Of a stretch of DNA of 64,000 nucleotides, positions 13,361 through 32,248 are shown in pieces. Position numbers and translations under genes: made by a program. Position 1 is the first letter of the stretch. Each line of letters opens with the position of its first letter. The stretch is from Barnesiella viscericola DSM 18177. Its GTDB lineage: Bacteria; Bacteroidota; Bacteroidia; Bacteroidales; Barnesiellaceae. The notes under the pieces are model-generated. The model was not told where the DNA came from, ran no database searches, and was given only the letters and a program-made list of their open reading frames with translations. The stretch lies in contig NZ_CP007034.1 of assembly GCF_000512915.1 (NCBI RefSeq), forward strand, positions 1,488,001 through 1,552,000, read 5' to 3'.

Positions 13361-14140
13361 TTATTTGCTCCGTTCCAACTCGAGCACAATCGTGCCACCC
13401 TCGCTCATGAGTGCCAGACGGCCGTTGTCGAGCAGACCGTAGGAACGCACGCTGTTGAGGGCCGAGAGTACCTGATTCTCGGTATCCATGTCGGGGCAGG
13501 CCATACGGGTAGAGGCCACGTTGCCAAACGAGATGGAGTTCTCGTCGGCCCCGTCGTGGTTAATCGCACCCGAAAGCCGGTTACAACCCGAATTGCCGGT
13601 TACCCGATTGGCTGTCACGTCGAAGTTGAGTGCTGGCACGGTTTCCATGCCTTCGGGCAAAGCGGCTCCGTAGAGGCTCACCACACGCCAGTCGCCTTTC
13701 AGGCTCGATAGGGGCACGACTTCGAAACGCTTCTGCAACAGCATCACCGGCTCTTTGTCCGCTCCATACAGCACCAACGTCTTACCCGAGCACTTGAGGC
13801 TTTTCACCGAGGCCAACGCATTGAGCATGAGCCGCTCGGTCTCCATATCGGGACAAGCCATGAGGGTAGAGGCCATCTGCCCCAATTCGATTTTATTGGG
13901 TTTCGAGAGGGTCAAAGCACCCATCAGCCGGTTGCAACCGGTATAACCGTATACCCGTCCGTCTTGGGCATCAAACCCGATAAAGGGTTGCGACTCGGCC
14001 TGCACGGCCTGGCCTTGAATCTCCACTACATTCCATTCGCCGTCGAGATCGTTTACCGACACGGCATCTTTTGAGGAGCGGCACGCAGCCAACGAAAGCA
14101 CGGCAGCAGCCACAGCCACATATAAACACTTCATTTTCAT
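13361..14140 (-). CDS. Lipoprotein with two META/HslJ-like domains
   Basis: 260 residues from the ATG at 14140; an in-frame upstream extension to 14206 lacks signal-peptide character. The signal MKMKCLYVAVAAAVLSLAACRSS has a lipobox with lipid Cys at residue 20. Two copies of a META (DUF306) domain follow: the first has YGYTGCNRLMGALTL and MASTLMACPDMETE, the second VTGNSGCNRLSGAINH and VASTRMACPDMDTE. HslJ, the E. coli member, has one META domain and is linked to novobiocin and heat stress; the role of the two-domain Bacteroidetes form is unknown. It is probably anchored in a cell-envelope membrane. Confidence 0.85.
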   Translation of the reverse strand: MKMKCLYVAVAAAVLSLAACRSSKDAVSVNDLDGEWNVVEIQGQAVQAESQPFIGFDAQDGRVYGYTGCNRLMGALTLSKPNKIELGQMASTLMACPDMETERLMLNALASVKSLKCSGKTLVLYGADKEPVMLLQKRFEVVPLSSLKGDWRVVSLYGAALPEGMETVPALNFDVTANRVTGNSGCNRLSGAINHDGADENSISFGNVASTRMACPDMDTENQVLSALNSVRSYGLLDNGRLALMSEGGTIVLELERSK

Positions 14141-14203
14141 AGTTCTTTTTGTTTTAGTTTCTATTCTATATTTTCTACACGAATTTCTCGTATAAAGATA
14201 AAA

Positions 14204-14211
14204 CAAAAATA
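14204..14211 (-). promoter_or_regulatory. -7 box (TATTTTTG) for the META lipoprotein
   Basis: Minus-strand TATTTTTG fits TAnnTTTG and lies 64 nt upstream of the chosen start at 14140. This supports that start, because the alternative ATG at 14206 would lie within the promoter. Confidence 0.4.
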
Positions 14212-16255: not shown

Positions 16256-16329
16256 TAGCGAGACCGGGGTATGATCCCGGGACCTCATGATTATGAATCA
16301 TGCGCTCTAACCAACTGAGCTATCTCGCC
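16256..16329 (-). tRNA. tRNA-Met (anticodon CAT)
   Basis: The minus strand folds as a 74-nt cloverleaf: acceptor arm GGCGAGA/TCTCGCT (first pair G-U), D-arm with AGCTCAGTTGGTTAGAGC, anticodon arm with loop TTCATAA (anticodon CAT), and T-arm ending CCCGGGATCATACCCCGG. The discriminator is A and CCA is not encoded. G1 and the normal acceptor pairing argue against the initiator tRNA. An elongator tRNA-Met is most likely; a lysidine-modified tRNA-Ile2 cannot be excluded by eye. Confidence 0.9.
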
Positions 16330-16370
16330 ATCATGTTTATTTTTGCATTGACCGCTTGTCAAATGCGGTG

Positions 16371-16401
16371 CAAAGATAAACGATTATTTTGGACTACGCA
16401 A
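16371..16401 (-). promoter_or_regulatory. Promoter of tRNA-Met (TTG-N20-TATCTTTG)
   Basis: On the minus strand TTG (16399-16401) and TATCTTTG (16371-16378) are 20 nt apart, a good match to the Bacteroidetes -33/-7 consensus. The -7 box lies about 42 nt upstream of the tRNA 5' end and wholly within the gap after the P-type ATPase gene, so the tRNA has its own promoter. Confidence 0.65.
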
Positions 16402-16428
16402 CAAATCGACGCATTTTTTATCAACAAT

Positions 16429-19155
16429 TTATGCCACAAGCCGGCGAATAAGTCGATAAATCTCGCCTATCCACAAAACAATCGAGGTGGCGGCAAAGAT
16501 ATAGACCCAATCCATGGGCTTCAACGGGGTCACGCTGAAGAGCGAACCGCCCAAACTCACGATGAGTATCTGCCCGGCCAGGATAATGAGGGTCACCCAC
16601 AGGAAGCCTTTGCAGGTGTTCAACCGGCTGAATGCCGACTGCACATTGCCAAAGGCCTTGGCATTGAACATATTCCAGAATTGCAGGAATACGAAGATGG
16701 AGAAGAAGAGGGTGAGTTCATATCGCGTGAGACCTTCGTGTACGGGCGTGAAATTGAAGAAATTGGCAAAGAAGAGCCGCAGGTCGAACTGGGCTATCGA
16801 GGTGACGTCGACGTGCTTGAAGTATTGCAACAGGCCGAACAACAGCAACACAAAGGCGATGCCGGTACCGATGATGCCCTTGCCCATGGCACGGGTCACG
16901 ATGTTGTCGTTCAGGTGGCGGGGCTTGTCGCGCATTACCCGCTCGTCGGGCGGCAACGAAGCCAAGGCCAGGGCGGCAAAGGTATCCATAATGAGGTTCA
17001 CCCACAACATCTGCGTGACGGTGAGAGGCGACTCGGTACCCAGGAATGCCCCGATGAGGACAATGAGACAGGCAGCCACGTTGATGGTCATCTGGAAGAG
17101 TATGAACTTCTGGATATTGCGATAGAGCGAACGTCCCCACAGCACAGCTTTGGTGATGCTGCCGAACGAGTTGTCGATGATGGTGATGTCGCTGGCCTCC
17201 TTGGCCACCGATGTGCCGTCGCCCATCGAGAGTCCCACCTGCGCGGCATTGAGTGCCGGTGCGTCGTTGGTACCGTCGCCGGTCACCGCCACCACCTCGT
17301 CTTGCGACTGCAAGAGTTTCACCAGCCGCTCCTTGTCCATGGGGCGAGCCCGGGCAATGACTTTCAGGTCGGGGATACGTTCCAGCAGGGTCTTGTCGTC
17401 GAGATTGGCAAACTCGGGACCGGTAATGATGTTGCGGTCGCCGTCCTCGGGCTTCCACAACGAAATCTGGCGGGCAATTTCGCGAGCCGTCGCCGGGGTA
17501 TCGCCCGTAACAATCTTCACCTGGATTCCGGCCTGCAAGCACTCGGCCACGGCTTCGGGCACCTCCTTGCGCACGGGGTCGGCAATGGCAGTCACACCCA
17601 GGAAGGTGAGGCGGATATGGGGGGCCAGATGCCCGGCCACGAAATAGGGCTCGTCATCGCCCACCAGCGCATAGGCAAAGCCCAGGGTGCGCATGGCCTG
17701 ATTCTGGTATTGCAACAGTTTTGCCTCCACGGCGGGACGGCTGCTCTCCATCGGCACAAGTCCCTGCGCGGTTATCTGTTGGGAGCAGAAGTTCATCACA
17801 TACTCGGGAGCCCCTTTCACATAGACTACCCGATGTTTGAGCAGCGGCGAGTCGACCACCGTAGCCATATATTTGCGCTCGGTCGAGAAGGTGAGCTGCT
17901 CCACCACATGCGCCTGGTTGCGCAACGCGGCGTAGTCGACACCCTGGTCGGCCAGCCACAACAGCAAGGCTCCCTCGGTGGGATTGCCCAGCACCTTCAT
18001 CACGCCGTTGGCCCCCTCGTCGAGGTGAGCCGTCGAGTTGGCGGCAATGCCTTCGTAGATAATTTCCTTCGTATTCGAGTCGGGTGCATAGGCAAAGTCG
18101 GCCTCGCTGACCCGCATCTGATTCTGTGTGAGCGTACCCGTCTTGTCGGTACAGATTACCGTGGCCGCGCCCATCGTTTCGCAGGCGTGCATCTTGCGCA
18201 CCAGGTTGTTGTTGGCCAACATGCGCTTCATGCTCATGGCCAGACTGAGGGTGACACTCATGGGCAACCCCTCGGGGACGGCTACCACAATCACGGTCAC
18301 GGCAATCATGGCCGTCGAGAGCAGATAGCTGCCGAAGCTGAGCCAGTCGAGCACCGGGTGGTCGGAGAGGTAGATGGCCGTGCGGGCTATCAGAATGATT
18401 GCCGCAATGACATAGCTGGCCTTCGTGATAAACGATGCCAGCGTATTGAGTTGCTTGTCGAGCGGAGTCTGGGTATTGTTTTCAATCTGCGAGCCGGTAT
18501 AGACCTTGCCATACTCGGTGGCATCGCCTACCTGCGTCACCCGCATCACGCCATAACCGCCCAGCATGGTCGAGCCGTTCATCACCGCGTTCGAGGGATA
18601 GGTCGCCTCCTTGTCAAAGTCGGCCTCGACCGTCGTCTTGGTGGCCATCGGTTCACCCGTGAGCGACGACTCGTTGACCTGTACCGAGACGGCACTCAGC
18701 AGAACACCGTCGGCCGGAATCTCGTCGCCGGCGTTGAGCATCACGATATCGCCCACCACCACGTCGCGTTTGGGAATTTCGAGGATATGACCGTCACGTA
18801 CCACCTTCACGGGCTGATCGTCGTTCACCTGGTTGAGAATATCGAACTTGCGGGCGGCACTCATCTCGAAGAGGAAGCCCACCACCGTGGCCAGCAAAAT
18901 GGCCAGGGCTATACCCGCCGGCTCGAACAGGGCCGACATGCCGGCCTCGCCCGTTGCCACGTGATAGACGGCTACCGCTATTGAGAGCAGCAGCGCCACC
19001 AGAAGGATACGGATAATGGGATCGGAGAATTTCTCCAGAAAAAGTTTCCACATGGGAGTCCGGGCGGGCGGTGTCAACACGTTCTCGCCATATTTCTCCC
19101 TACTTGCCCGCACCTCAGCGTCGCTCAGGCCGGGGTATTCCAATTTAGAGCTCAT
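16429..19155 (-). CDS. P-type Ca2+-transporting ATPase (PMCA-like)
   Basis: 908 residues with the full P2-type layout: an N-terminal cation-ATPase domain, the actuator loop with SSLTGEP (about 172-178), the M4 motif VVAVPEGLPMSVTLSLA, the phosphorylation site CTDKTGTLT, the nucleotide-binding domain, the hinge TGDGTNDAPALNAAQVG, and six C-terminal membrane helices. PEGLP in M4 is the plasma-membrane Ca2+-ATPase form, so calcium export is likely, although Mn2+ or other divalent ions are possible. It starts 59 nt after hisS on the same strand and may be co-transcribed with it. The long open frame on the opposite strand is a composition shadow of this gene. Confidence 0.92.
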   Translation of the reverse strand: MSSKLEYPGLSDAEVRASREKYGENVLTPPARTPMWKLFLEKFSDPIIRILLVALLLSIAVAVYHVATGEAGMSALFEPAGIALAILLATVVGFLFEMSAARKFDILNQVNDDQPVKVVRDGHILEIPKRDVVVGDIVMLNAGDEIPADGVLLSAVSVQVNESSLTGEPMATKTTVEADFDKEATYPSNAVMNGSTMLGGYGVMRVTQVGDATEYGKVYTGSQIENNTQTPLDKQLNTLASFITKASYVIAAIILIARTAIYLSDHPVLDWLSFGSYLLSTAMIAVTVIVVAVPEGLPMSVTLSLAMSMKRMLANNNLVRKMHACETMGAATVICTDKTGTLTQNQMRVSEADFAYAPDSNTKEIIYEGIAANSTAHLDEGANGVMKVLGNPTEGALLLWLADQGVDYAALRNQAHVVEQLTFSTERKYMATVVDSPLLKHRVVYVKGAPEYVMNFCSQQITAQGLVPMESSRPAVEAKLLQYQNQAMRTLGFAYALVGDDEPYFVAGHLAPHIRLTFLGVTAIADPVRKEVPEAVAECLQAGIQVKIVTGDTPATAREIARQISLWKPEDGDRNIITGPEFANLDDKTLLERIPDLKVIARARPMDKERLVKLLQSQDEVVAVTGDGTNDAPALNAAQVGLSMGDGTSVAKEASDITIIDNSFGSITKAVLWGRSLYRNIQKFILFQMTINVAACLIVLIGAFLGTESPLTVTQMLWVNLIMDTFAALALASLPPDERVMRDKPRHLNDNIVTRAMGKGIIGTGIAFVLLLFGLLQYFKHVDVTSIAQFDLRLFFANFFNFTPVHEGLTRYELTLFFSIFVFLQFWNMFNAKAFGNVQSAFSRLNTCKGFLWVTLIILAGQILIVSLGGSLFSVTPLKPMDWVYIFAATSIVLWIGEIYRLIRRLVA

Positions 19156-20821: not shown

Positions 20822-20845
20822 GCTTATATCTTGTTTCGGGTCATA

Positions 20846-23800
20846 TCAGAAGCGATAGGCCGTACCCAGCGAAACGCGCCCTACCCCTATGAAGTGGTGG
20901 GTATTGAGTACACCGTCATACAGCTTGTCGTCCCACAGGGTCATCGATGGTTCTACATAAAAATCGAACGATGGCGACACATTCCAGAGCAACTGTACAC
21001 CGCCGCGGGCCACCCAGCCCACACCGCCTTCGCTGTTGTAGTTGCTCCAACCCAGACCGGTACCTACCGACCCAATCAGGTGGAAACGACGGTCGGGATC
21101 GGAATCGAGCAGCGAGGTAAAGTTGAGCAGATAGTCGGCATGGAGCGTGCCCACATTGAGCGTGCGGGACGAGTGGGGGGCGATAAAGTCGTAACCCAAT
21201 CCTACCGATACACCCGACGCTCCAGTGAACCAATGCCCGAAGGAGAGGTCGGTGCCTACCGAAACCTTGCGATATTGAGACATCATGATTGTTTCGCTAA
21301 ACAGCGACGGACCCACCGACAACGAGAAGAAATTGCGTTTCTCGGGAGCCCGGCTGCCTACGGCTGCGGATTTCCCGCCCAACTTATAGTTAAGGCCTAT
21401 CAATACACGAGCTTCGGGATCGAAATTGTTGTAGCTGTGCGGTATGTGCGAGGCTACGATTTGCGGCTCAACAAAGAGGTCTATATCCGACGATACATTG
21501 AATCGGCCCTGCATACCGGCACGCGCTCCATAGACAAACTCGTTTTTCTTCTCATAGTTACCGGCTCCGCCATAGATACCACCCAGCACAATGACGTCGA
21601 AGATGCGATTGGGGTTATAACCGGCCGTGAAGGCCGACAGGTTGAACAGATAGTCGGCCGAAAAAGCCAAGGCCATGTATTGAGGATCTTGATCATAATA
21701 ACCATAATCAACTCCTACCCGCCATGCCGAAAGCGGGGTGTACCATTTGCCAAACGAGAGGGCAGCACCATATCCTCCCGTGAAACCGTTAACCAGCCCT
21801 CGCAGCCACCGGCCCGTGTAGGCCAGCGACAGGAAATATTTGTCCGATTCGTCGTAAGCGGCATGATTGGCCCGATAATCATATTGGTTGAGTCGATACT
21901 GAATACCCACATTGACCGATGTGAGCAGATCGACCGGCATACCGGCATAGCTCTCGCGCGAGTAGTTCTTACCGAAAACGCGTACCTGCGGCTCGATGAA
22001 CAGGCCTACACCCGAACCGACATTCCACAGGCCCTGCAAGCTCACTCCCGCACCGGGATACCACCCGGGGTGATTGCTGGTTGCATAAGAGAGCACGGCT
22101 CCCACACCCACGTTGGCCTCGAAGATGCGCGACGGATTGTAGCCATACAACGTCGAATTGATATTCCACAGATAGTCGAGTTGAACAAGTCCGAATTTGC
22201 GATAGCCGGGCTCAGAGTCGCCATACACACCACCTGCCCCCGAGAGCCGAAGTCCCGATGCCGCCGTAAACCATTTACCCAAATAAAAAGTACCGGTGGG
22301 GCCCATACGGTCGAGCGGTCGGCTGAACAAGTCGTGATGCAGAATACCGGCAGCCCCTACCCCTATACCATAAAACAGATGGTCGATAAAATTCTCGTTG
22401 CGGAACTCCTCGGCCTTCTCCATGGTACCATGAGTCCGACCATATCCATAGAGATGATAGGAGAGACCCGCCGTAATAGTCGGCACCATGTCGACAGAAG
22501 AGAACAGGGAGTGCTCCCAGCGGTTGTTTTGCGCTACATTCAATCGAGGTTCGATAAAGACATCGAACATATCGTTAATCCGGAACGAGCCTTGCAAGCC
22601 CACCCCGGCACCCAAGGTGTGCTGGAAGTACCCTTCTGACGACACATAGTCATAGTTGAGACCGGCCACACCGCTCAGCGAGAAGAGGCGCTCGCGATCA
22701 TACCCCATAAAGAGGTTCGAGAAGTTGAGCAGATAATCGAGTTGCCCTCCCACGGCCCAGGTGTGATGTGTTGAATAGGGTGCATTAATCGACGACCCAT
22801 TGAGCAACAGACGGGCCCCCGAAACAGGATTCCACCAGGTGCCCAAACCGCCAAACAGGCGATAGCCCTTATTGGGTATGGGCTCGGAGAGCGACGATTT
22901 CATTACCCCGGCAAATCCGCCACCCAAGGTCAGGTAGAGGTCACCGATACCCCGGGGCCAGTCAAACTCATCACCCGTTATTGACGAACGGTCGAGCGAA
23001 GGAGCTACCGGCCGATAGGTGAAACCGGCCAACAGCGACGGAATGGGATCGACAGCACTCAGTACATCGGCCCATGCTCCATTGGTAAATACATCTACAC
23101 GAGGCTCCAAGAACAAGCCCCAGTGATCATTAAGACGAAACTCGCCATGCAATCCGGCACCCACGCTCCATCGGGTATTCAGGTGGTCGTTGACCGCTAC
23201 CGAGTGGTAACCGGCACCCACCACGCCCGACATCTCGAACAACCTTCCGGGATCATATCCCCCAAACAAAGCGTGCATGTTAAACAAATAATCGAGTTGT
23301 ACTCCGAATGAAGACTTGTCATAGGCTTGTCCGGTTTTCAAATAGCGTACCAATCCCGACAATCGCAACGACGAAACCGGCGTAAACTGATCGCCTAACG
23401 AGACCATGACCATAGCTCCCGGATCGAGCAGAAGATTCGAAGCACTCGTCAAGGTAGAGGCCAGCCCCCCTGCCGCCGAAATGAACAGGCCTTGACCGGC
23501 TCCCCAGAAGGGTTCGTGCCGACGCGTCGGAGCCGAGAGCAACCGATAACCGAAACCGGCCATGAGCGAAGCCTCCCAATCGTAACGCATCCAGGTTTTT
23601 ATCCCGTCTATTCCATCGGTGTAGATACCCACCCGGGGTTCAAGGTAGAAGAAAGTCAGCGGCGAGAAATTGAAGCGGGTCTGCATACCCAGCCGGAAAC
23701 CGCCCGCATGCGTCCAGTTTCCTTGCCGATACAACAACTGATATTCGCCACCGGCTACACCAATCAGCTCGAACATACGAGCCGGATTATCCTTGTGCAA

Positions 23801-24244
23801 CAACGAGGTGAGATTCATCAGATAGTCGGCCGAAAATCCTACAAAATATGGATTACTACCGCCAAGGCCGTTATGCAGACCGGCATTCAGGCCCAATCGT
23901 ATACCGTGAACCGGGGTGAACCAGTCACCTACCAACAAGCCTGAACGAAGGCCCAAACCGGGCGTAGCAAACAGCGAGCCGGCCGAACGATCCATAATCA
24001 GTCCGGCTTCGCCCGAAACGAAAAGGTGATCGCCAAACTTCTTTCGGGCAAACCGCTCATTCTTGGCCGGTTTCTGCAACATATAATCCAATCCGTTGAA
24101 CTGGGTTTCCTCTTTTTGTTCTTGCTTGGGTTCGGAGGTCTGACTCGACTCCTGTGCAGCCACACTTCCGGTACACAGTATTATCGCAAGTCCTGCACAT
24201 CGAATCCCTTTTACAAAACCGCTCATACTATATTTCATCTTCAT
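20846..24244 (-). CDS. Six-fold tandem beta-barrel-like outer-membrane protein
   Basis: 1132 residues with a signal peptide (to about residue 30), then a Gln/Glu/Ser/Thr-rich linker. The rest consists of six diverged repeats of about 175 residues (roughly 72-235, 251-412, 433-598, 622-785, 802-955, 970-1132). Each repeat carries, in order, a W(F/Y/N)TP-like turn, a DYLxN box (residues 140, 318, 503, 690, 864, 1037), a YxPxRxF-like box, and an EPR/EPQ/EPS box (202, 380, 565, 751, 926, 1098), and ends in a Gly/aromatic beta strand; the last ends SLGTAYRF. Each repeat has the look of an eight-stranded OmpA-like barrel or of a DUF3575-type beta domain. I do not recognise the family. It is the last gene of an operon whose first gene encodes a DUF3575 protein. 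Confidence 0.8.
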   Translation of the reverse strand: MKMKYSMSGFVKGIRCAGLAIILCTGSVAAQESSQTSEPKQEQKEETQFNGLDYMLQKPAKNERFARKKFGDHLFVSGEAGLIMDRSAGSLFATPGLGLRSGLLVGDWFTPVHGIRLGLNAGLHNGLGGSNPYFVGFSADYLMNLTSLLHKDNPARMFELIGVAGGEYQLLYRQGNWTHAGGFRLGMQTRFNFSPLTFFYLEPRVGIYTDGIDGIKTWMRYDWEASLMAGFGYRLLSAPTRRHEPFWGAGQGLFISAAGGLASTLTSASNLLLDPGAMVMVSLGDQFTPVSSLRLSGLVRYLKTGQAYDKSSFGVQLDYLFNMHALFGGYDPGRLFEMSGVVGAGYHSVAVNDHLNTRWSVGAGLHGEFRLNDHWGLFLEPRVDVFTNGAWADVLSAVDPIPSLLAGFTYRPVAPSLDRSSITGDEFDWPRGIGDLYLTLGGGFAGVMKSSLSEPIPNKGYRLFGGLGTWWNPVSGARLLLNGSSINAPYSTHHTWAVGGQLDYLLNFSNLFMGYDRERLFSLSGVAGLNYDYVSSEGYFQHTLGAGVGLQGSFRINDMFDVFIEPRLNVAQNNRWEHSLFSSVDMVPTITAGLSYHLYGYGRTHGTMEKAEEFRNENFIDHLFYGIGVGAAGILHHDLFSRPLDRMGPTGTFYLGKWFTAASGLRLSGAGGVYGDSEPGYRKFGLVQLDYLWNINSTLYGYNPSRIFEANVGVGAVLSYATSNHPGWYPGAGVSLQGLWNVGSGVGLFIEPQVRVFGKNYSRESYAGMPVDLLTSVNVGIQYRLNQYDYRANHAAYDESDKYFLSLAYTGRWLRGLVNGFTGGYGAALSFGKWYTPLSAWRVGVDYGYYDQDPQYMALAFSADYLFNLSAFTAGYNPNRIFDVIVLGGIYGGAGNYEKKNEFVYGARAGMQGRFNVSSDIDLFVEPQIVASHIPHSYNNFDPEARVLIGLNYKLGGKSAAVGSRAPEKRNFFSLSVGPSLFSETIMMSQYRKVSVGTDLSFGHWFTGASGVSVGLGYDFIAPHSSRTLNVGTLHADYLLNFTSLLDSDPDRRFHLIGSVGTGLGWSNYNSEGGVGWVARGGVQLLWNVSPSFDFYVEPSMTLWDDKLYDGVLNTHHFIGVGRVSLGTAYRF

Positions 24245-24256
24245 ACCTTATTCCTC

Positions 24257-26287
24257 TCATTCGTCTTCCTGCAACAAATCCAGTACATCACCATCGATGC
24301 TGGCTATATCACGCAACGACGGGTCTTTTTTGAATGCACTTTCCAGATAGGAAAGCGCCAACACCACTTCGTCGACACGATTGGCCGCCACGGCCTTGAT
24401 ATAATTTTCGCGAGCCGAATTACCCAACAGTTTGGCCTTTTCCCAAGCCTGGTCGTTGGCCTTAATAGCCAATAACATGAGCACCTCGTTAAAGGGCGAC
24501 TCGGCCGAAATCTCCTGTATCACCTCTTCATAACGGCCGTTCAATGCGGCCGAGTAAACCTTGGCTTTATGATAGGCTCCCGTATCGGGCAGCTCGGCGG
24601 CCAGCGAATCGGCCTGAACAAATTTCCTTACCGACAGCCAGGCAATTACCTGATTGAGGCGTGTTTCATCGGGTATCTCTTTCATGCCGAGATACGGTAC
24701 AAGCAATTCGGCATCGGGCTTACCCTGCTCGATAAGCATCGCGGCCAGGTCGGTTGCAGCAACCAGGAACTTGGGATAAACCTCCAAGGCCCGTCGGCAG
24801 ATAGCCTCACGCTCGGCCGTCGAATCGGCCATATTGTACAACCGCCAGAACTCGTTTCGAGTGAGGTCTCCACTGTTCTCCCGATAGAGTTCTTTGATTT
24901 CGTCGTCGGTGAGGTAACGGTATTGCGAAAACAACAGTTCGTAGCTTACCCGACGCAATTGCGGCAAATATTGCTCGGTAATCAACGGCCGGTAAAAAGG
25001 TAGCGCTACGACACCGCGCGACTGACGATTGGGGTCGTCGGGATATTTGTCGATAACAGCCTGTATAGCATCGGCCTCTTGACTCTTTCCATCGGCACGC
25101 AGCAGAGCTACCACCCGATCCCAGGTCTCAACCGAGGCATTCGTGCCTATTTCGAGTTGGCGGCGAGTCGACTCGTTCAACTCCTGCAACACAAGCTCCA
25201 TGGCCGACGACATACGCTGTTGGGCCAACTGCTCGTTTTTTGCATAATTACCTTCCGGCGAAGCCGTTCCGGCAATCGAGAAGCTCTTCAACCGGGCATT
25301 GGGGTCATTCTCGACCGCCCGCAATCGCGCTATCAGTTGATTCATCTCTTCCCGATTGTTTCCGTCGTTGAGATTCAATTGGCTTTTGTTTACCGGGAAG
25401 GTCAGATTCACATCTCCCTTCGTATCGCGCAACTGCATCTCGGGCTGCGGGAAGAAACTCTCGTCTTTCACAGCACTGCCGGGTATCTCATATTTCAAGA
25501 AACGCAACGGGTTGACTACCCCCCGGGCAATCACAAAGGTATCACGATACAGCACCCGGTTGTAATTCTCCATGGCCACCATCATGTCGCAACGGAAATC
25601 GTCGTTGGGATTCTCGACATAAGTCGAGTCGTTATATCCTACCAAATCGTCCTTCCGCGACGAGGAAGCCTTGATTTTCACATATTGGGCCAGCGGGTCC
25701 TGCTTCACATCGTAGTCATACATGCGCTCCTGCGTGATGGCATACTCCTGCCCGTCAAAGACAAGCGGGCTGAGAAAGATCATCTTTCCCCGTGTCACGT
25801 TATAGATACCCGGCTGGATAATCATGCGGGCATCGGTCGAAAAGAGTTCTTTGGGAATCTTCACGCGGGTCTTGATGTGAAAGTAGTTACCCTTCACCTC
25901 GATATCGGTAGGCTCGGGCACCACATTATCGGTAATACGCTTGGCCGAGACCACAACTTCTTGCAGCGCAACGGCCGAGGGTTCGAGCTCGACATTGACA
26001 GTCAACTCACCCCGCACGGCCACCTGCTTCTCTTCATAGCCCAGCGACGAGAAGAGCAAGGTGCCCTCCGAATCAATTTTCACCAGATATTTTCCATCTT
26101 CGTTGGTAACCCCAACCAGCTTGTTGGTAGCCGCATTGTAGATGCTCACCCGATACAAAGGTTCGTCATCGAGATTGGTTACCGTTCCCCGCACATTAAT
26201 TTCACGGGCCGACAACGGTAAGGTGACCGCCAAAAGCAATATACCCGCAAGAATACGCAGGTAGATTTTATTATTAAAACTCAACAT
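24257..26287 (-). CDS. Carboxypeptidase-like regulatory domain + OmpA-like + TPR-type envelope protein
   Basis: 676 residues. A signal peptide (to about 27) precedes a carboxypeptidase-regulatory-like domain (NVRGTVTNLDDEPLYRVSIYN... GYEEKQVAV, about 30-110) ending in ALQEVVVSAKR, as in TonB receptors, but no barrel follows. A beta-rich middle (about 125-310) leads to an OmpA-like domain (NLTFPVNKSQLNL... FSIAGTASPEGNYAKNEQLAQQRMSSAM, about 305-385) and an alpha-helical TPR-like tail. It probably sits in the periplasm, anchoring to peptidoglycan or organising the neighbouring beta proteins. It starts 15 nt after the DUF3575 gene and ends 12 nt before the hexa-barrel gene. Confidence 0.75.
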   Translation of the reverse strand: MLSFNNKIYLRILAGILLLAVTLPLSAREINVRGTVTNLDDEPLYRVSIYNAATNKLVGVTNEDGKYLVKIDSEGTLLFSSLGYEEKQVAVRGELTVNVELEPSAVALQEVVVSAKRITDNVVPEPTDIEVKGNYFHIKTRVKIPKELFSTDARMIIQPGIYNVTRGKMIFLSPLVFDGQEYAITQERMYDYDVKQDPLAQYVKIKASSSRKDDLVGYNDSTYVENPNDDFRCDMMVAMENYNRVLYRDTFVIARGVVNPLRFLKYEIPGSAVKDESFFPQPEMQLRDTKGDVNLTFPVNKSQLNLNDGNNREEMNQLIARLRAVENDPNARLKSFSIAGTASPEGNYAKNEQLAQQRMSSAMELVLQELNESTRRQLEIGTNASVETWDRVVALLRADGKSQEADAIQAVIDKYPDDPNRQSRGVVALPFYRPLITEQYLPQLRRVSYELLFSQYRYLTDDEIKELYRENSGDLTRNEFWRLYNMADSTAEREAICRRALEVYPKFLVAATDLAAMLIEQGKPDAELLVPYLGMKEIPDETRLNQVIAWLSVRKFVQADSLAAELPDTGAYHKAKVYSAALNGRYEEVIQEISAESPFNEVLMLLAIKANDQAWEKAKLLGNSARENYIKAVAANRVDEVVLALSYLESAFKKDPSLRDIASIDGDVLDLLQEDE

Positions 26288-26302: not shown

Positions 26303-26851
26303 TCATTTGAATATATAGGAAAATGTGACACCCAACCGGATAGGTATCGGCGACCACCTGTACCAATTGGGGGTATCAGGCTTCTGCTCGTCTTCCCGAT
26401 ATTTAAAAGCCCGCAACCGGGCTACACCTACACCCAGCGTCGTTTCCAAATTCCAATGTCGGCTTAGCACGAATACGTAGCCATACGAGACCCCAACTCC
26501 AAAAATATCGCCTTCATAAAAATTTTTGTTAAACTTCACATTGTATAGACCTCCCAAAAGACCGACGCCTACAAAATGGCGGGCCATCGGCCGGTTGAAC
26601 CAATAGCGCAACTCCGGTTGAAGCCTCACATGCGTAGCCTTCATATCGGCAATCGTAAACGAAAACGGGTGAGTCGTTGCACTGATATCGAGAGACAATT
26701 TCTGGTTGAGGCGCATCTCCACCGCCAAATTCGGCGACAAGGTCGCCCAGTCTATCAAGTTACTTTTTAACGCAACACGTTGTGCATCAATTTGTTGAAA
26801 GTTCAGGAAAATACCTGCCAACAACAAGAAACGGAATAAAACTTTTTTCAT
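26303..26851 (-). CDS. DUF3575-family outer-membrane protein
   Basis: 182 residues with a signal peptide (MKKVLFRFLLLAGIFLNFQQIDAQ). The mature part matches DUF3575: RVALKSNLIDWATLSPNLAVEMRLNQKLSLDIS, then QPELRYWFNRPMARHFVGVG and a C-terminal strand LGVTFSYIFK. Proteins of this family are small beta-barrel-like envelope proteins that in Bacteroidetes often open operons with OmpA/DUF3868 proteins, some of them fimbrial. Here no fimbrillin gene follows. It is the first gene of the three-gene operon and has a near-consensus promoter. Confidence 0.85.
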   Translation of the reverse strand: MKKVLFRFLLLAGIFLNFQQIDAQRVALKSNLIDWATLSPNLAVEMRLNQKLSLDISATTHPFSFTIADMKATHVRLQPELRYWFNRPMARHFVGVGLLGGLYNVKFNKNFYEGDIFGVGVSYGYVFVLSRHWNLETTLGVGVARLRAFKYREDEQKPDTPNWYRWSPIPIRLGVTFSYIFK

Positions 26852-28051: not shown

Positions 28052-31000
28052 ATGCAAACGGCCAACTATTACAGAACCGGATTAGACGTGGGCTCTACGA
28101 CAGCCAAGATGGTCATTCTAAACCCACACGGCGAGGTAGTATTCTCGCGCTACGAGCGTCATAACGCTCAGGTAAACCAATTGCTCTGCACCTATTTCGA
28201 CGAGGCGAAAAAGCAGTTGGGCGACATCACGACTGCCATTGCCGTGACCGGCTCGGTGGGCATGGGCACGGCCGAGCAGTTACAAGCCGGATTTACGCAG
28301 GAGGTGGTTGCCGCCACCCGATATGCACAGGAAACCTATCCATCGGCCTCGGCCCTGATCGATATCGGCGGCGAAGATGCCAAAGTGGTACTCTTCCAGG
28401 GCGAGAACATAGACTTGCGCATGAACGGCAACTGCGCCGGCGGTACCGGAGCCTTTATCGACCAAATGGCTGTTCTGCTGGGCGTAAGCATCGAGCAACT
28501 GAACCGGCTGGCTCTGCAAGCAGAGCACATACACCCCATTGCCGCCCGCTGTGGAGTATTCTCAAAGACCGATATCCAGAATCTGGTGAGCCGGAACGTA
28601 CCCCTTGCCGACATCGCCGCCTCGATATTCCATGCGGTTGCCGTGCAGACAATCGTCACGCTGTCACGAGGCTGGACCTTCCGTCCGCCCATTCTGCTAT
28701 GCGGGGGGCCGCTCACCTTTATCCCCGCCCTCCGCAAAACTTTTGCCGACTATCTGCAAATTGCCGAAAGCGATTTCATTCTCCCCTCGGGAGGCAATCT
28801 GCTGCCGGCTCTGGGCTGTGCCTTGTGCGCCGATGGGAATCGCCTCACCACCCTCCCGGCCCTGTCACAAGCCATTTCACGACAGGCCGACACTCATCGC
28901 AAAGCCTCCCTGCCACCCCTCTTTTCCTCACCCCGGGAGTATGACCGATGGAAAGAGGAAAAGGCTCGCTACAACTGGCCTGTACTCCCGCTGAAACCAG
29001 GACGACAAGAGGCGGTCCTCGGCATCGACTCGGGATCGACCACCACCAAAATCGTCGTGGCTGCTCCCGACGGCTCCATTCTCTTCACCCACTACGCCCC
29101 CAACCTGGGCAATCCCATCGAGGCGGTGCGCAGGGGGCTCACCGAACTCAAACAACAGTGCGATACCCGACAGACCGAACTGGCATTCATAGGCTCCTGC
29201 TCGACCGGTTACGGCGAAGAGCTGATCAAAGCGGCATTCGCCCTCGACGGAAGCATGATTGAAACCATGGCTCACTACAAGGCAGCCAGGCAAATGGCTC
29301 CCGACGTGAGCTTTATACTCGACATCGGCGGGCAAGACATGAAAGCTATCTTTGTCAAGCAAGGAGCCATTATCCGCATGGAGTTGAACGAAGCCTGCTC
29401 GTCGGGGTGCGGCTCTTTCATCGAGACCTTTGCCCGCACACTGGGGCACAAGGTATCCGACTTTGCCCAGGCCGCCTGCACAGCCTCTCGGCCGTGTGAC
29501 CTGGGGACCCGCTGCACCGTCTTCATGAACTCGAAAGTCAAACAGGTCCTGCGCGAGGGAGCTTCCATTGCCGACATTGCGGCCGGACTCTCCTACTCGG
29601 TCGTGAAGAACTGTCTCTACAAGGTATTAAAACTGAAACACGGCAAAGAGCTGGGCGAGACTATTGTCGTACAAGGCGGCACCATGCACAACGACGCCGT
29701 CGTGCGAGCCTTCGAACTGGAAACCGGCCGGCAGGTGGTCCGCAGTAACCACCCCGAACTGATGGGAGCTTACGGGTGTGCCCTGCAAGCCCTGGAACAA
29801 CAGGCTGCACCCCGGTCTCTCGACACCCTGCTGGCATCGACCGGTTATGACAGCCGGCAGATCCAGTGCAGCGGCTGCGAGAACCGCTGCTTCGTGTGCC
29901 GCTACACCTTCCCCAACGGCAACACCTTCTACTCGGGCAACAAATGCGAACGGATATTCACCAACCGCGGCGAAAGCGAGAGACCCGGCGAGAACCTCTA
30001 CTCCTACAAATACAAGTTGCTGTTCGACCGACCTACCTCGTCCCAAGGACACCTGGTCGTAGGTATCCCCCGAGTACTCAACATGTACGAAAACTATCCC
30101 TTCTGGCATGCCCTTTTCGCCCATTGCGGCATCGGGGTAGTACTCTCCGACCTGTCGAATTTCGTCAGCTACGAAAAGGCTCTCAACACCGTCATGTCCG
30201 ACAACATCTGCTTCCCCGCCAAACTGGTACACAGCCACATACAGAATCTCGTACAAAAAAAGGTCGACCGCATCTTTCTCCCCTACGTCATCTACGAGCA
30301 CGAGAGCGACGCCAAGATGTCGAACAGCTACAACTGCCCTATCGTCGCCGGCTACTCCGACGTGATACGCAGCGCCATGTCGCCCGACATTCCCGTCGAC
30401 TCGCCGGCCATCACGTTTGCCAACCTCGAACTGCTCACCAAACAATGCACCCGCTATCTCCACACGCTGGGCATCTCACACGAGTTGGCCGACGAAGCGG
30501 TAAAACGGGCCTGGCAGTCCCAACGGCAATACACCCTCGACATTCGACAAAAAGCCGAAGCCATCGTGCGGGAGAGCCGTCAGAAGGGTGAGCCTATCAT
30601 TCTGCTGGCCGGACGCCCCTACCATACCGACCCGCTCATTCAGCACAAACTCTCCGAGATGATTGTCAATCTGGGAGTGAACGTAATCTCGGACGACATT
30701 GTGCGCGACCATACCGACATCGACACCCACGACACCTACCTCGTGAAACAATGGGCCTACATGAACCGAATCTTGAAAGCAGCCGAATGGGTGGCCCGGC
30801 AAGGCAACGACATTCATTTCGTGCAGATGACCTCGTTCGGGTGCGGCCCCGACGCCTTCCTGCTCGACGAGATACGCGACATTCTGCATCGCAACGGCAA
30901 GCCCTTCACGCTGCTGAAAATCGACGACGTGAACAACATCGGCTCCCTCAAACTGCGGGTTCGTTCGCTGGTCGAGAGCCTGCGCCAAAACAACCGCCCC

Positions 31001-32248
31001 GCCACGACCGAGGCGTTCCGCACAACCCGGATATTCCGCAAGAGCGACCGGAAGCGGAAAATCATAGCCCCCTTCATGTCGGAGTACATCACCCCCATGC
31101 TGGTTCCCCTCTTCAAACTGTCGGGATACGACGTCGAAGTGTTGCCGCCCAGCGACACCGCCTCGGCCGAAACGGGCCTGAAATATGCCAACAACGAAGT
31201 CTGCTACCCCGCCACCCTCATCGTGGGCGACATCATCAATGCCCTGCAATCGGGTCGATACGACCTCGACCATATTGCCGTAGCCATCACCCAAACCGGC
31301 GGACAATGCCGTGCCACCAATTACCTGGCTCTCATCAAACGGGCCATGCTCGATGCCGGATTCGGCCATGTGCCGGTTGTCACCCTGGGATTGGGTCGGA
31401 AAGCGGTCAACGAGCAGGAGGGGTTCAACTTGAAATGGGGCAAAATTATCTCGGTCGCCCTCAATGCCTTGCTCTATACCGACACCCTATCGAAACTCTA
31501 TCACGCTTCGGTCGTGCGCGAGCGCGAACCGGGTGCAGCCGCCCGCCTGCGCGACCAATATCTGGCCATGGCCGAGAAACCCATTCTCGACAACACCCCC
31601 TCGAAACTGGTGGAGTATGCGGATCGAGCAGCCCGGGATTTCAATGGAATATGCCTCGACAAAGAGTGCCCGAGGGTAGGAGTCGTAGGCGAGATATTCC
31701 TGAAATTCAACTCATTTGCCCATCAGCACGTTGTCCGTTTCCTCACCGGGCAAGGCATCGAGGTGGCTCCCCCCTTGCTGCTGCCCTTTTTCATGCAGGG
31801 ATTTGTCAACCGCGACAACAAGGAGTCGATGCTCTTGTTGAAACAGCACATACCCCATTTCATCTCACAGCTGGCCTACCGGCTCATCGGCAAGCGAATA
31901 GCGATGTTCAACCGGGCCGCTTCGGAGTTCCGCTACTTTGTCCCCTTTACCGACATCTACGAAGAGGCCGAAAACACCCGCAACATCGTATCGGGAGCCG
32001 CTCAATTCGGCGAGGGCTGGTTGCTCCCGGCCGAGATTATCGAGTTTACGAAACAAGGGATACACAACGTCATTTCGCTTCAACCCTTCGGCTGCATTGC
32101 CAACCACATTGTATCGAAAGGTATTGAAAAACGGCTGCGCACGCTCTATCCCGAATTAAATTTACTATCTTTGGATTTTGACAGCGGAGTAAGCAGCGTA
32201 AACGTGACCAACCGATTATTACTGTTCACCCATCATTTGAGAGCCTAA
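28052..32248 (+). CDS. 2-hydroxyacyl-CoA dehydratase activase, large fused form
   Basis: 1398 residues. Two BadF/BcrA-type ASKHA ATPase domains lie in tandem: GLDVGSTTAKMV (about 9-20) with NGNCAGGTGAF (about 126), and GIDSGSTTTKIV (about 324-335) with NEACSSGCGSFIE (about 448). The paired domains carry the Cys residues that hold a [4Fe-4S] cluster in HgdC-type activases. A cluster CSGCENRCFVC (C-x2-C-x3-C-x2-C, about 606) and a DUF2229-like region plus an HgdB-like C-terminal part (about 680-1398) follow. Such proteins drive ATP-dependent electron injection into dehydratases. No separate dehydratase subunits lie nearby, so the C-terminal part may be the partner. It is co-transcribed with the TetR gene 15 nt downstream. 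Confidence 0.85.
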   Translation: MQTANYYRTGLDVGSTTAKMVILNPHGEVVFSRYERHNAQVNQLLCTYFDEAKKQLGDITTAIAVTGSVGMGTAEQLQAGFTQEVVAATRYAQETYPSASALIDIGGEDAKVVLFQGENIDLRMNGNCAGGTGAFIDQMAVLLGVSIEQLNRLALQAEHIHPIAARCGVFSKTDIQNLVSRNVPLADIAASIFHAVAVQTIVTLSRGWTFRPPILLCGGPLTFIPALRKTFADYLQIAESDFILPSGGNLLPALGCALCADGNRLTTLPALSQAISRQADTHRKASLPPLFSSPREYDRWKEEKARYNWPVLPLKPGRQEAVLGIDSGSTTTKIVVAAPDGSILFTHYAPNLGNPIEAVRRGLTELKQQCDTRQTELAFIGSCSTGYGEELIKAAFALDGSMIETMAHYKAARQMAPDVSFILDIGGQDMKAIFVKQGAIIRMELNEACSSGCGSFIETFARTLGHKVSDFAQAACTASRPCDLGTRCTVFMNSKVKQVLREGASIADIAAGLSYSVVKNCLYKVLKLKHGKELGETIVVQGGTMHNDAVVRAFELETGRQVVRSNHPELMGAYGCALQALEQQAAPRSLDTLLASTGYDSRQIQCSGCENRCFVCRYTFPNGNTFYSGNKCERIFTNRGESERPGENLYSYKYKLLFDRPTSSQGHLVVGIPRVLNMYENYPFWHALFAHCGIGVVLSDLSNFVSYEKALNTVMSDNICFPAKLVHSHIQNLVQKKVDRIFLPYVIYEHESDAKMSNSYNCPIVAGYSDVIRSAMSPDIPVDSPAITFANLELLTKQCTRYLHTLGISHELADEAVKRAWQSQRQYTLDIRQKAEAIVRESRQKGEPIILLAGRPYHTDPLIQHKLSEMIVNLGVNVISDDIVRDHTDIDTHDTYLVKQWAYMNRILKAAEWVARQGNDIHFVQMTSFGCGPDAFLLDEIRDILHRNGKPFTLLKIDDVNNIGSLKLRVRSLVESLRQNNRPATTEAFRTTRIFRKSDRKRKIIAPFMSEYITPMLVPLFKLSGYDVEVLPPSDTASAETGLKYANNEVCYPATLIVGDIINALQSGRYDLDHIAVAITQTGGQCRATNYLALIKRAMLDAGFGHVPVVTLGLGRKAVNEQEGFNLKWGKIISVALNALLYTDTLSKLYHASVVREREPGAAARLRDQYLAMAEKPILDNTPSKLVEYADRAARDFNGICLDKECPRVGVVGEIFLKFNSFAHQHVVRFLTGQGIEVAPPLLLPFFMQGFVNRDNKESMLLLKQHIPHFISQLAYRLIGKRIAMFNRAASEFRYFVPFTDIYEEAENTRNIVSGAAQFGEGWLLPAEIIEFTKQGIHNVISLQPFGCIANHIVSKGIEKRLRTLYPELNLLSLDFDSGVSSVNVTNRLLLFTHHLRA

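Follow-up and report, generated by a model that had tools for sequence, protein, structure and literature searches.

A predicted chain of six OmpA-type barrels encoded in a DUF3575 operon of Barnesiella

Introduction

Some outer-membrane proteins, the Barnesiella protein described here among them, are predicted to carry more than one barrel per chain, and Solan et al. are said to have found chains with eight-stranded barrels to be the commonest among such multi-barrel proteins. We know of no experimental structure of a multi-barrel outer-membrane chain. The class goes back to a prediction published in 2021 (Solan et al., PNAS, doi 10.1073/pnas.2104059118, as described in PMC11494523 and PMC8592465). 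In GfcD, its best known case, a periplasmic domain separates a 12-stranded from a 13-stranded barrel. An artificial tandem of OmpX reportedly acts as a single functional pore (Arnold et al. 2007, as cited in PMC6340704). Two further systems are close to the present one: Bacteroidales OmpA, whose N-terminal eight-stranded barrel is homologous to the Barnesiella unit, and the DUF3575/DUF3868/fimbrillin clusters (FimA, Mfa type V pilus), which have the same upstream pair of DUF3575 and OmpA-like/TPR genes. Searching the DUF3575/DUF3868 literature returned expression-table entries only and no function.

We analyzed a window of 64,000 nucleotides from Barnesiella viscericola DSM 18177 (all coordinates below refer to it), which includes a gene for a protein of 1132 residues. 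We consider it highly likely that this protein is a chain of separate barrels in its operon, an estimate that covers the architecture and not the platform role proposed below. A preliminary description of the locus knew of no characterised protein of this form, which appears correct as far as experiments go, although the class had already been predicted in 2021 (Solan et al., via PMC11494523). The barrel chain would be a new family within that predicted class as citing papers describe it.

Results

The barrel gene and the features read within it are as follows, all on the minus strand.

20846..24244, minus: gene for the predicted six-barrel outer-membrane protein, 1132 aa (open reading frame, six unit-profile matches and Barnesiella relatives)
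24152..24244, minus: signal-peptide-like N terminus, residues 1-31, ending AAQ (read from the sequence; hydrophobic stretch retained in relatives)
24053..24103, minus: N-terminal box, residues 48-64, beginning QFNGLDYMLQKPAKNER, ahead of barrel 1 (conserved across families)
23513..24043, minus: predicted barrel unit 1, residues 68-244 (unit profile; leave-one-out E 2e-29)
22982..23506, minus: predicted barrel unit 2, residues 247-421 (unit profile, leave-one-out; eight-stranded barrel model)
22424..22951, minus: predicted barrel unit 3, residues 432-607 (unit profile, leave-one-out; sister of unit 2 in the tree)
21881..22393, minus: predicted barrel unit 4, residues 618-788 (unit profile, leave-one-out, tree)
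21353..21853, minus: predicted barrel unit 5, residues 798-964 (unit profile, leave-one-out, tree)
20849..21349, minus: predicted barrel unit 6, residues 966-1132 (unit profile, leave-one-out; in the tree it joins the final unit of the five-unit arrays)

The protein consists of six repeats of about 175 residues each, and its full-length relatives in Barnesiella, 71-86% identical, also have six units each. The preliminary description had pointed to DYLxN and EP(R/Q/S) boxes recurring six times at spacings of 172-187 residues, and the motif positions bear this out: DYL[MFLW]N lies at residues 140, 318, 503, 690, 864 and 1037 (spacings 178, 185, 187, 174 and 173) and EP[RQS] at residues 202, 380, 565, 751, 926 and 1098 (spacings 178, 185, 186, 175 and 172). 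The Gly/aromatic strand said to end each unit is likewise present in all six as G-x-x-Y (GFGYRL, GFTYRP, GLSYHL, GIQYRL, GLNYKL and GTAYRF), the last of these running into the stop codon so that unit 6 ends in a C-terminal aromatic residue of the outer-membrane-protein type. When each unit in turn was left out, a profile built from the other five recovered it with 74-110 bits (E 6e-22 to 5e-33). Shuffled controls, 200 for each unit, reached 8 bits at best, so the six-fold repeat is far beyond chance. The units are as diverged as had been proposed, at 20-35% pairwise identity, and linkers of about 15-25 residues separate them. A long plus-strand ORF lies opposite the barrel gene (20831-22639) and is probably a shadow ORF.

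We searched for the family of a single repeat, a check that the preliminary description had suggested. Besides the arrays, the six-unit profile matches single copies in proteins of about 390 residues from many Bacteroidales, most with E 1e-11 to 1e-26. Seven of these were scanned, and all seven carry a C-terminal PF00691 OmpA domain, while two have PF13505 OMP_b-brl over the unit region; the source genome encodes its own OmpA protein of this kind (397 aa, L042). Because the unit profile finds the N-terminal part of PF00691-bearing OmpA proteins, we identify the repeat as an OmpA-type barrel domain, its family being the N-terminal barrels of Bacteroidales OmpA. PF00691 itself is absent from the 1132-residue chain by Pfam, and Pfam and NCBIfam gave only sub-threshold barrel matches to it. 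PDB sequence searches with the protein and with the unit profile yielded no useful match.

The absence of any Pfam match above cut-off would also be compatible with a soluble repeat protein, periplasmic or at the surface, built as a solenoid or from soluble barrels. We regard this as extremely improbable given the homology to OmpA barrels, the best fold matches, all to outer-membrane barrels, the C-terminal Phe, and an amphipathic strand pattern: the strands alternate hydrophobic and polar residues more strongly than any of 2000 permutations. The signal-like start and the C-terminal Phe would fit an outer-membrane location for the chain.

To model a unit, AlphaFold2 was run with 24 unit rows on unit 2 extended by the opening hairpin of unit 3, leaving strand 8 free either to close on strand 1 of its own unit or to pair with the next unit. 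The resulting model (pLDDT 78, pTM 0.69) places eight strands within the unit and a further two, at lower confidence, in the added hairpin. Structural comparison with VIA-align matched it to NspA (Z 18.5, 150 of 155 residues, 2.5 A), OmpA (Z 16.5-18.6), OprF (Z 16.5) and the Legionella Dot/Icm porin III (Z 19.0), and the top matches were all outer-membrane barrels. These matches are confined to model residues 1-175 and leave the unit-3 hairpin (192-225) outside. The prediction for a single repeat, also suggested earlier, thus returned eight strands and matches to closed barrels, and unit 2 appears to close on itself as an eight-stranded barrel, as judged from those matches rather than from hydrogen bonds. 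AlphaFold2 may, in such a unit-plus-hairpin test, prefer to close a familiar small barrel.

The preliminary description had left the choice between six small barrels and one very large one. The unit model, the homology to OmpA and changes of copy number by whole units favor the six small barrels and disfavor the large one. In the latter, the units would be sectors of a single sheet with some 48 strands, or between 40 and 64 in relatives, and the size of the pore would depend on how many unit copies the gene holds. Such a barrel would exceed any single-chain barrel known to us, for example that of SprA with 36 strands. Tandem units can merge, since the laboratory-made OmpX tandem reportedly yielded a single functional pore (Arnold et al. 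2007, as cited in PMC6340704); the units also have even strand numbers, and the full-length AlphaFold2 model, uninformative at pLDDT 25 and built from four near-identical rows (three Barnesiella relatives added), would allow a single barrel. We nevertheless judge such a barrel very unlikely. In direct competition unit 2 matched closed eight-stranded barrels without the hairpin of its neighbor, and homologous units occur singly, both in OmpA and as a free barrel of 205 residues (L074). Copy number runs from 2 to 8 in whole-unit steps in all cases examined, the units are spaced by linkers, and the polar strand face carries the D, E and R conserved in the DYL, EPR and RL boxes, an arrangement like that of small barrels whose core is packed. 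With the unit-2 model matching closed barrels and the hairpin left aside, we favor six separate eight-stranded barrels over a giant barrel or a soluble solenoid; this reading draws on one modeled unit together with the comparative evidence.

The preliminary description had mentioned neither the conserved operon nor the copy-number series and the fimbrillin link set out below. The barrel gene is the last of three, and the two genes upstream of it, on the same strand, are listed here.

24257..26287, minus: scaffold partner, 676 aa, with CarboxypepD_reg-like (32-113) and OmpA-like (297-369) domains and a TPR-like region (Pfam)
26303..26851, minus: DUF3575 partner, 182 aa, of a small barrel type (Pfam E 2.5e-50)

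The barrel gene and the scaffold gene are 12 bases apart, and the scaffold and DUF3575 genes 15. Barnesiella and other families of Bacteroidales share one gene order (DUF3575, CarboxypepD_reg/OmpA-like/TPR scaffold, barrel array), and the DUF3575 and scaffold genes lie upstream of every array with at least two units examined. We considered the scaffold as a peptidoglycan binder. Its OmpA-like domain keeps the Arg but has Ser in place of the Asp of GYAD in the genome's own OmpA, and this Ser is invariant across the scaffold partner family, which weakens that candidate; peptidoglycan binding is doubtful because of this replacement and because the domain match is weak (Pfam E 0.023). The box ahead of barrel 1 reads FNGLDYMLQKP in this protein and NALDYxLQKR, or close variants of it, in the 2-, 3-, 5- and 8-unit arrays of other families. 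In most arrays it follows the signal sequence and precedes the first barrel, so it is probably periplasmic; in some three-unit arrays (f60) it is degenerate.

Related operons of Bacteroidales contain 2, 3, 5, 6 or 8 whole units. Five-unit arrays occur in six genomes (families f29 and f61) and eight-unit arrays in two genomes of f79; the three-unit arrays of f60 and two-unit arrays of f9 share the operon order. Family f3 has as its third gene a fusion of one unit with a DUF3575 barrel, and behind it come DUF5119, an Mfa_like fimbrillin and a FimA-like protein. Across 396 genomes spread over the class, the array profile matched only within the same order, and most of its matches were single OmpA barrels. 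The barrel-chain gene can be missing, as one Barnesiella genome (G001, 95% complete) gave an OmpA-like match only. The free 205-residue barrel (L074:8630-9247) belongs to the same family and lies in the locus of a three-unit array (L074:3275-5044), which also carries two DUF3575-matching genes. In a fimbrillin locus, one OmpA-type unit and a DUF3575 domain are naturally fused (L073:7601-8854), which suggests that the two barrel families cooperate or are related.

We reconstructed the duplication history from a maximum-likelihood tree of 67 units, which contains a few long-branched rows and is weak at some of its deep forks. Unit 6 of Barnesiella clusters with the fifth unit of the five-unit arrays (support 100/98), unit 1 with their unit 1 (90/80) and unit 4, within a wider group, with their unit 3 (94/87). 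Units 2 and 3 of Barnesiella are sisters (100/98), and the sixth barrel is therefore a duplication of the Barnesiella lineage. In f79 the sister pairs 4/6 and 5/7 reveal duplication of a two-unit block (u4-u5, u6-u7). Because the tree combines positional orthology with duplications of units and blocks, copy number steps by whole units and never by hairpins in the cases examined. The unit comparisons indicate that the array is old and that copies were added later by whole-unit duplication. The duplication had been called old and kept, and both parts stand: units pair by position with those of other Bacteroidales families, and within Barnesiella dN/dS is about 0.12, a clear sign of purifying selection. 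The two-unit blocks of f79 would fit barrels that are paired or merge in part, such as three with 16 strands each, an arrangement that is highly improbable because odd-numbered arrays (3 and 5) are common and the Barnesiella u2/u3 pair arose by addition of a single unit.

The DUF3575 and OmpA-like/TPR gene pair of type V pilus loci is present in the window operon. Mfa_like fimbrillin genes lie upstream of a two-unit (L075) and a three-unit locus (L103), and another flanks a one-unit locus (L073). Among the neighbors examined, none was found beside five-, six- or eight-unit arrays, and the ORFs around the window operon, read by eye and in part scanned with Pfam, include none. Since low-copy versions adjoin fimbrillin genes, an origin from a type V pilus locus is suggested: the operon would have begun as the outer-membrane base in such a fimbrillin locus and have lost its fimbrillins later, a direction that we infer. 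Elsewhere in Barnesiella, a second DUF3575 and OmpA-like/TPR pair lies near a weak Mfa2-like anchor in a separate locus of fimbrial type (L081:3686-9568). Rather than an independent platform, the array could be the outer-membrane base for a type V pilus that is still active and has its genes elsewhere in the genome, which would fit the six-barrel architecture; the fimbrillins beside low-copy arrays and the L081 locus with its anchor speak for this, but with none among the examined neighbors of the higher-copy arrays we think it rather unlikely.

In other parts of the window, we noted by eye a 1398-residue protein resembling a fused 2-hydroxyacyl-CoA dehydratase activase of the BcrAD/HgdC type (28052-32248) and a minus-strand protein with apparently two copies of a META/HslJ-like domain (13361-14206). 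A long plus-strand ORF (16300-18984) opposite an apparent P-type ATPase gene on the minus strand is probably a shadow ORF.

Discussion

We propose that the protein would be exported via Sec and that BAM would insert its barrels singly and in turn, giving six OmpA-type eight-stranded barrels joined through periplasmic linkers of about 15-25 residues. The N-terminal box is a candidate docking site on the CarboxypepD_reg/OmpA-like/TPR scaffold. The chain might then serve as a covalent membrane platform of fixed stoichiometry that keeps the scaffold in place at the outer membrane and displays 24 extracellular loops, a role that we put forward tentatively, as one possibility.

The family is suited to testing why and how bacteria chain barrels because its relatives carry two to eight of them in the same three-gene operon. 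This natural series of 2, 3, 5, 6 and 8 units in a fixed operon opens the insertion of successive barrels by BAM to study, and could show which barrel bears the insertion signal and what purpose a covalent raft of barrels serves. Through this family, moreover, the DUF3575 and OmpA/TPR genes that stand unexplained in fimbrial loci become connected with an outer-membrane structure.

Compared with GfcD, the Barnesiella chain is a pure array of OmpA-type barrels and stands in a DUF3575 operon. Unlike Bacteroidales OmpA, it has several barrels and lacks the C-terminal OmpA domain, an OmpA-like domain being encoded instead by the neighboring gene. High-copy barrel loci differ from the fimbrillin clusters in having a barrel chain and, among the neighbors examined, no adjoining fimbrillin. 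The OmpX tandem, too, concatenates the sequence of an eight-stranded barrel, but it is an artificial duplication, whereas the Barnesiella chain consists of natural, diverged copies joined by long linkers.
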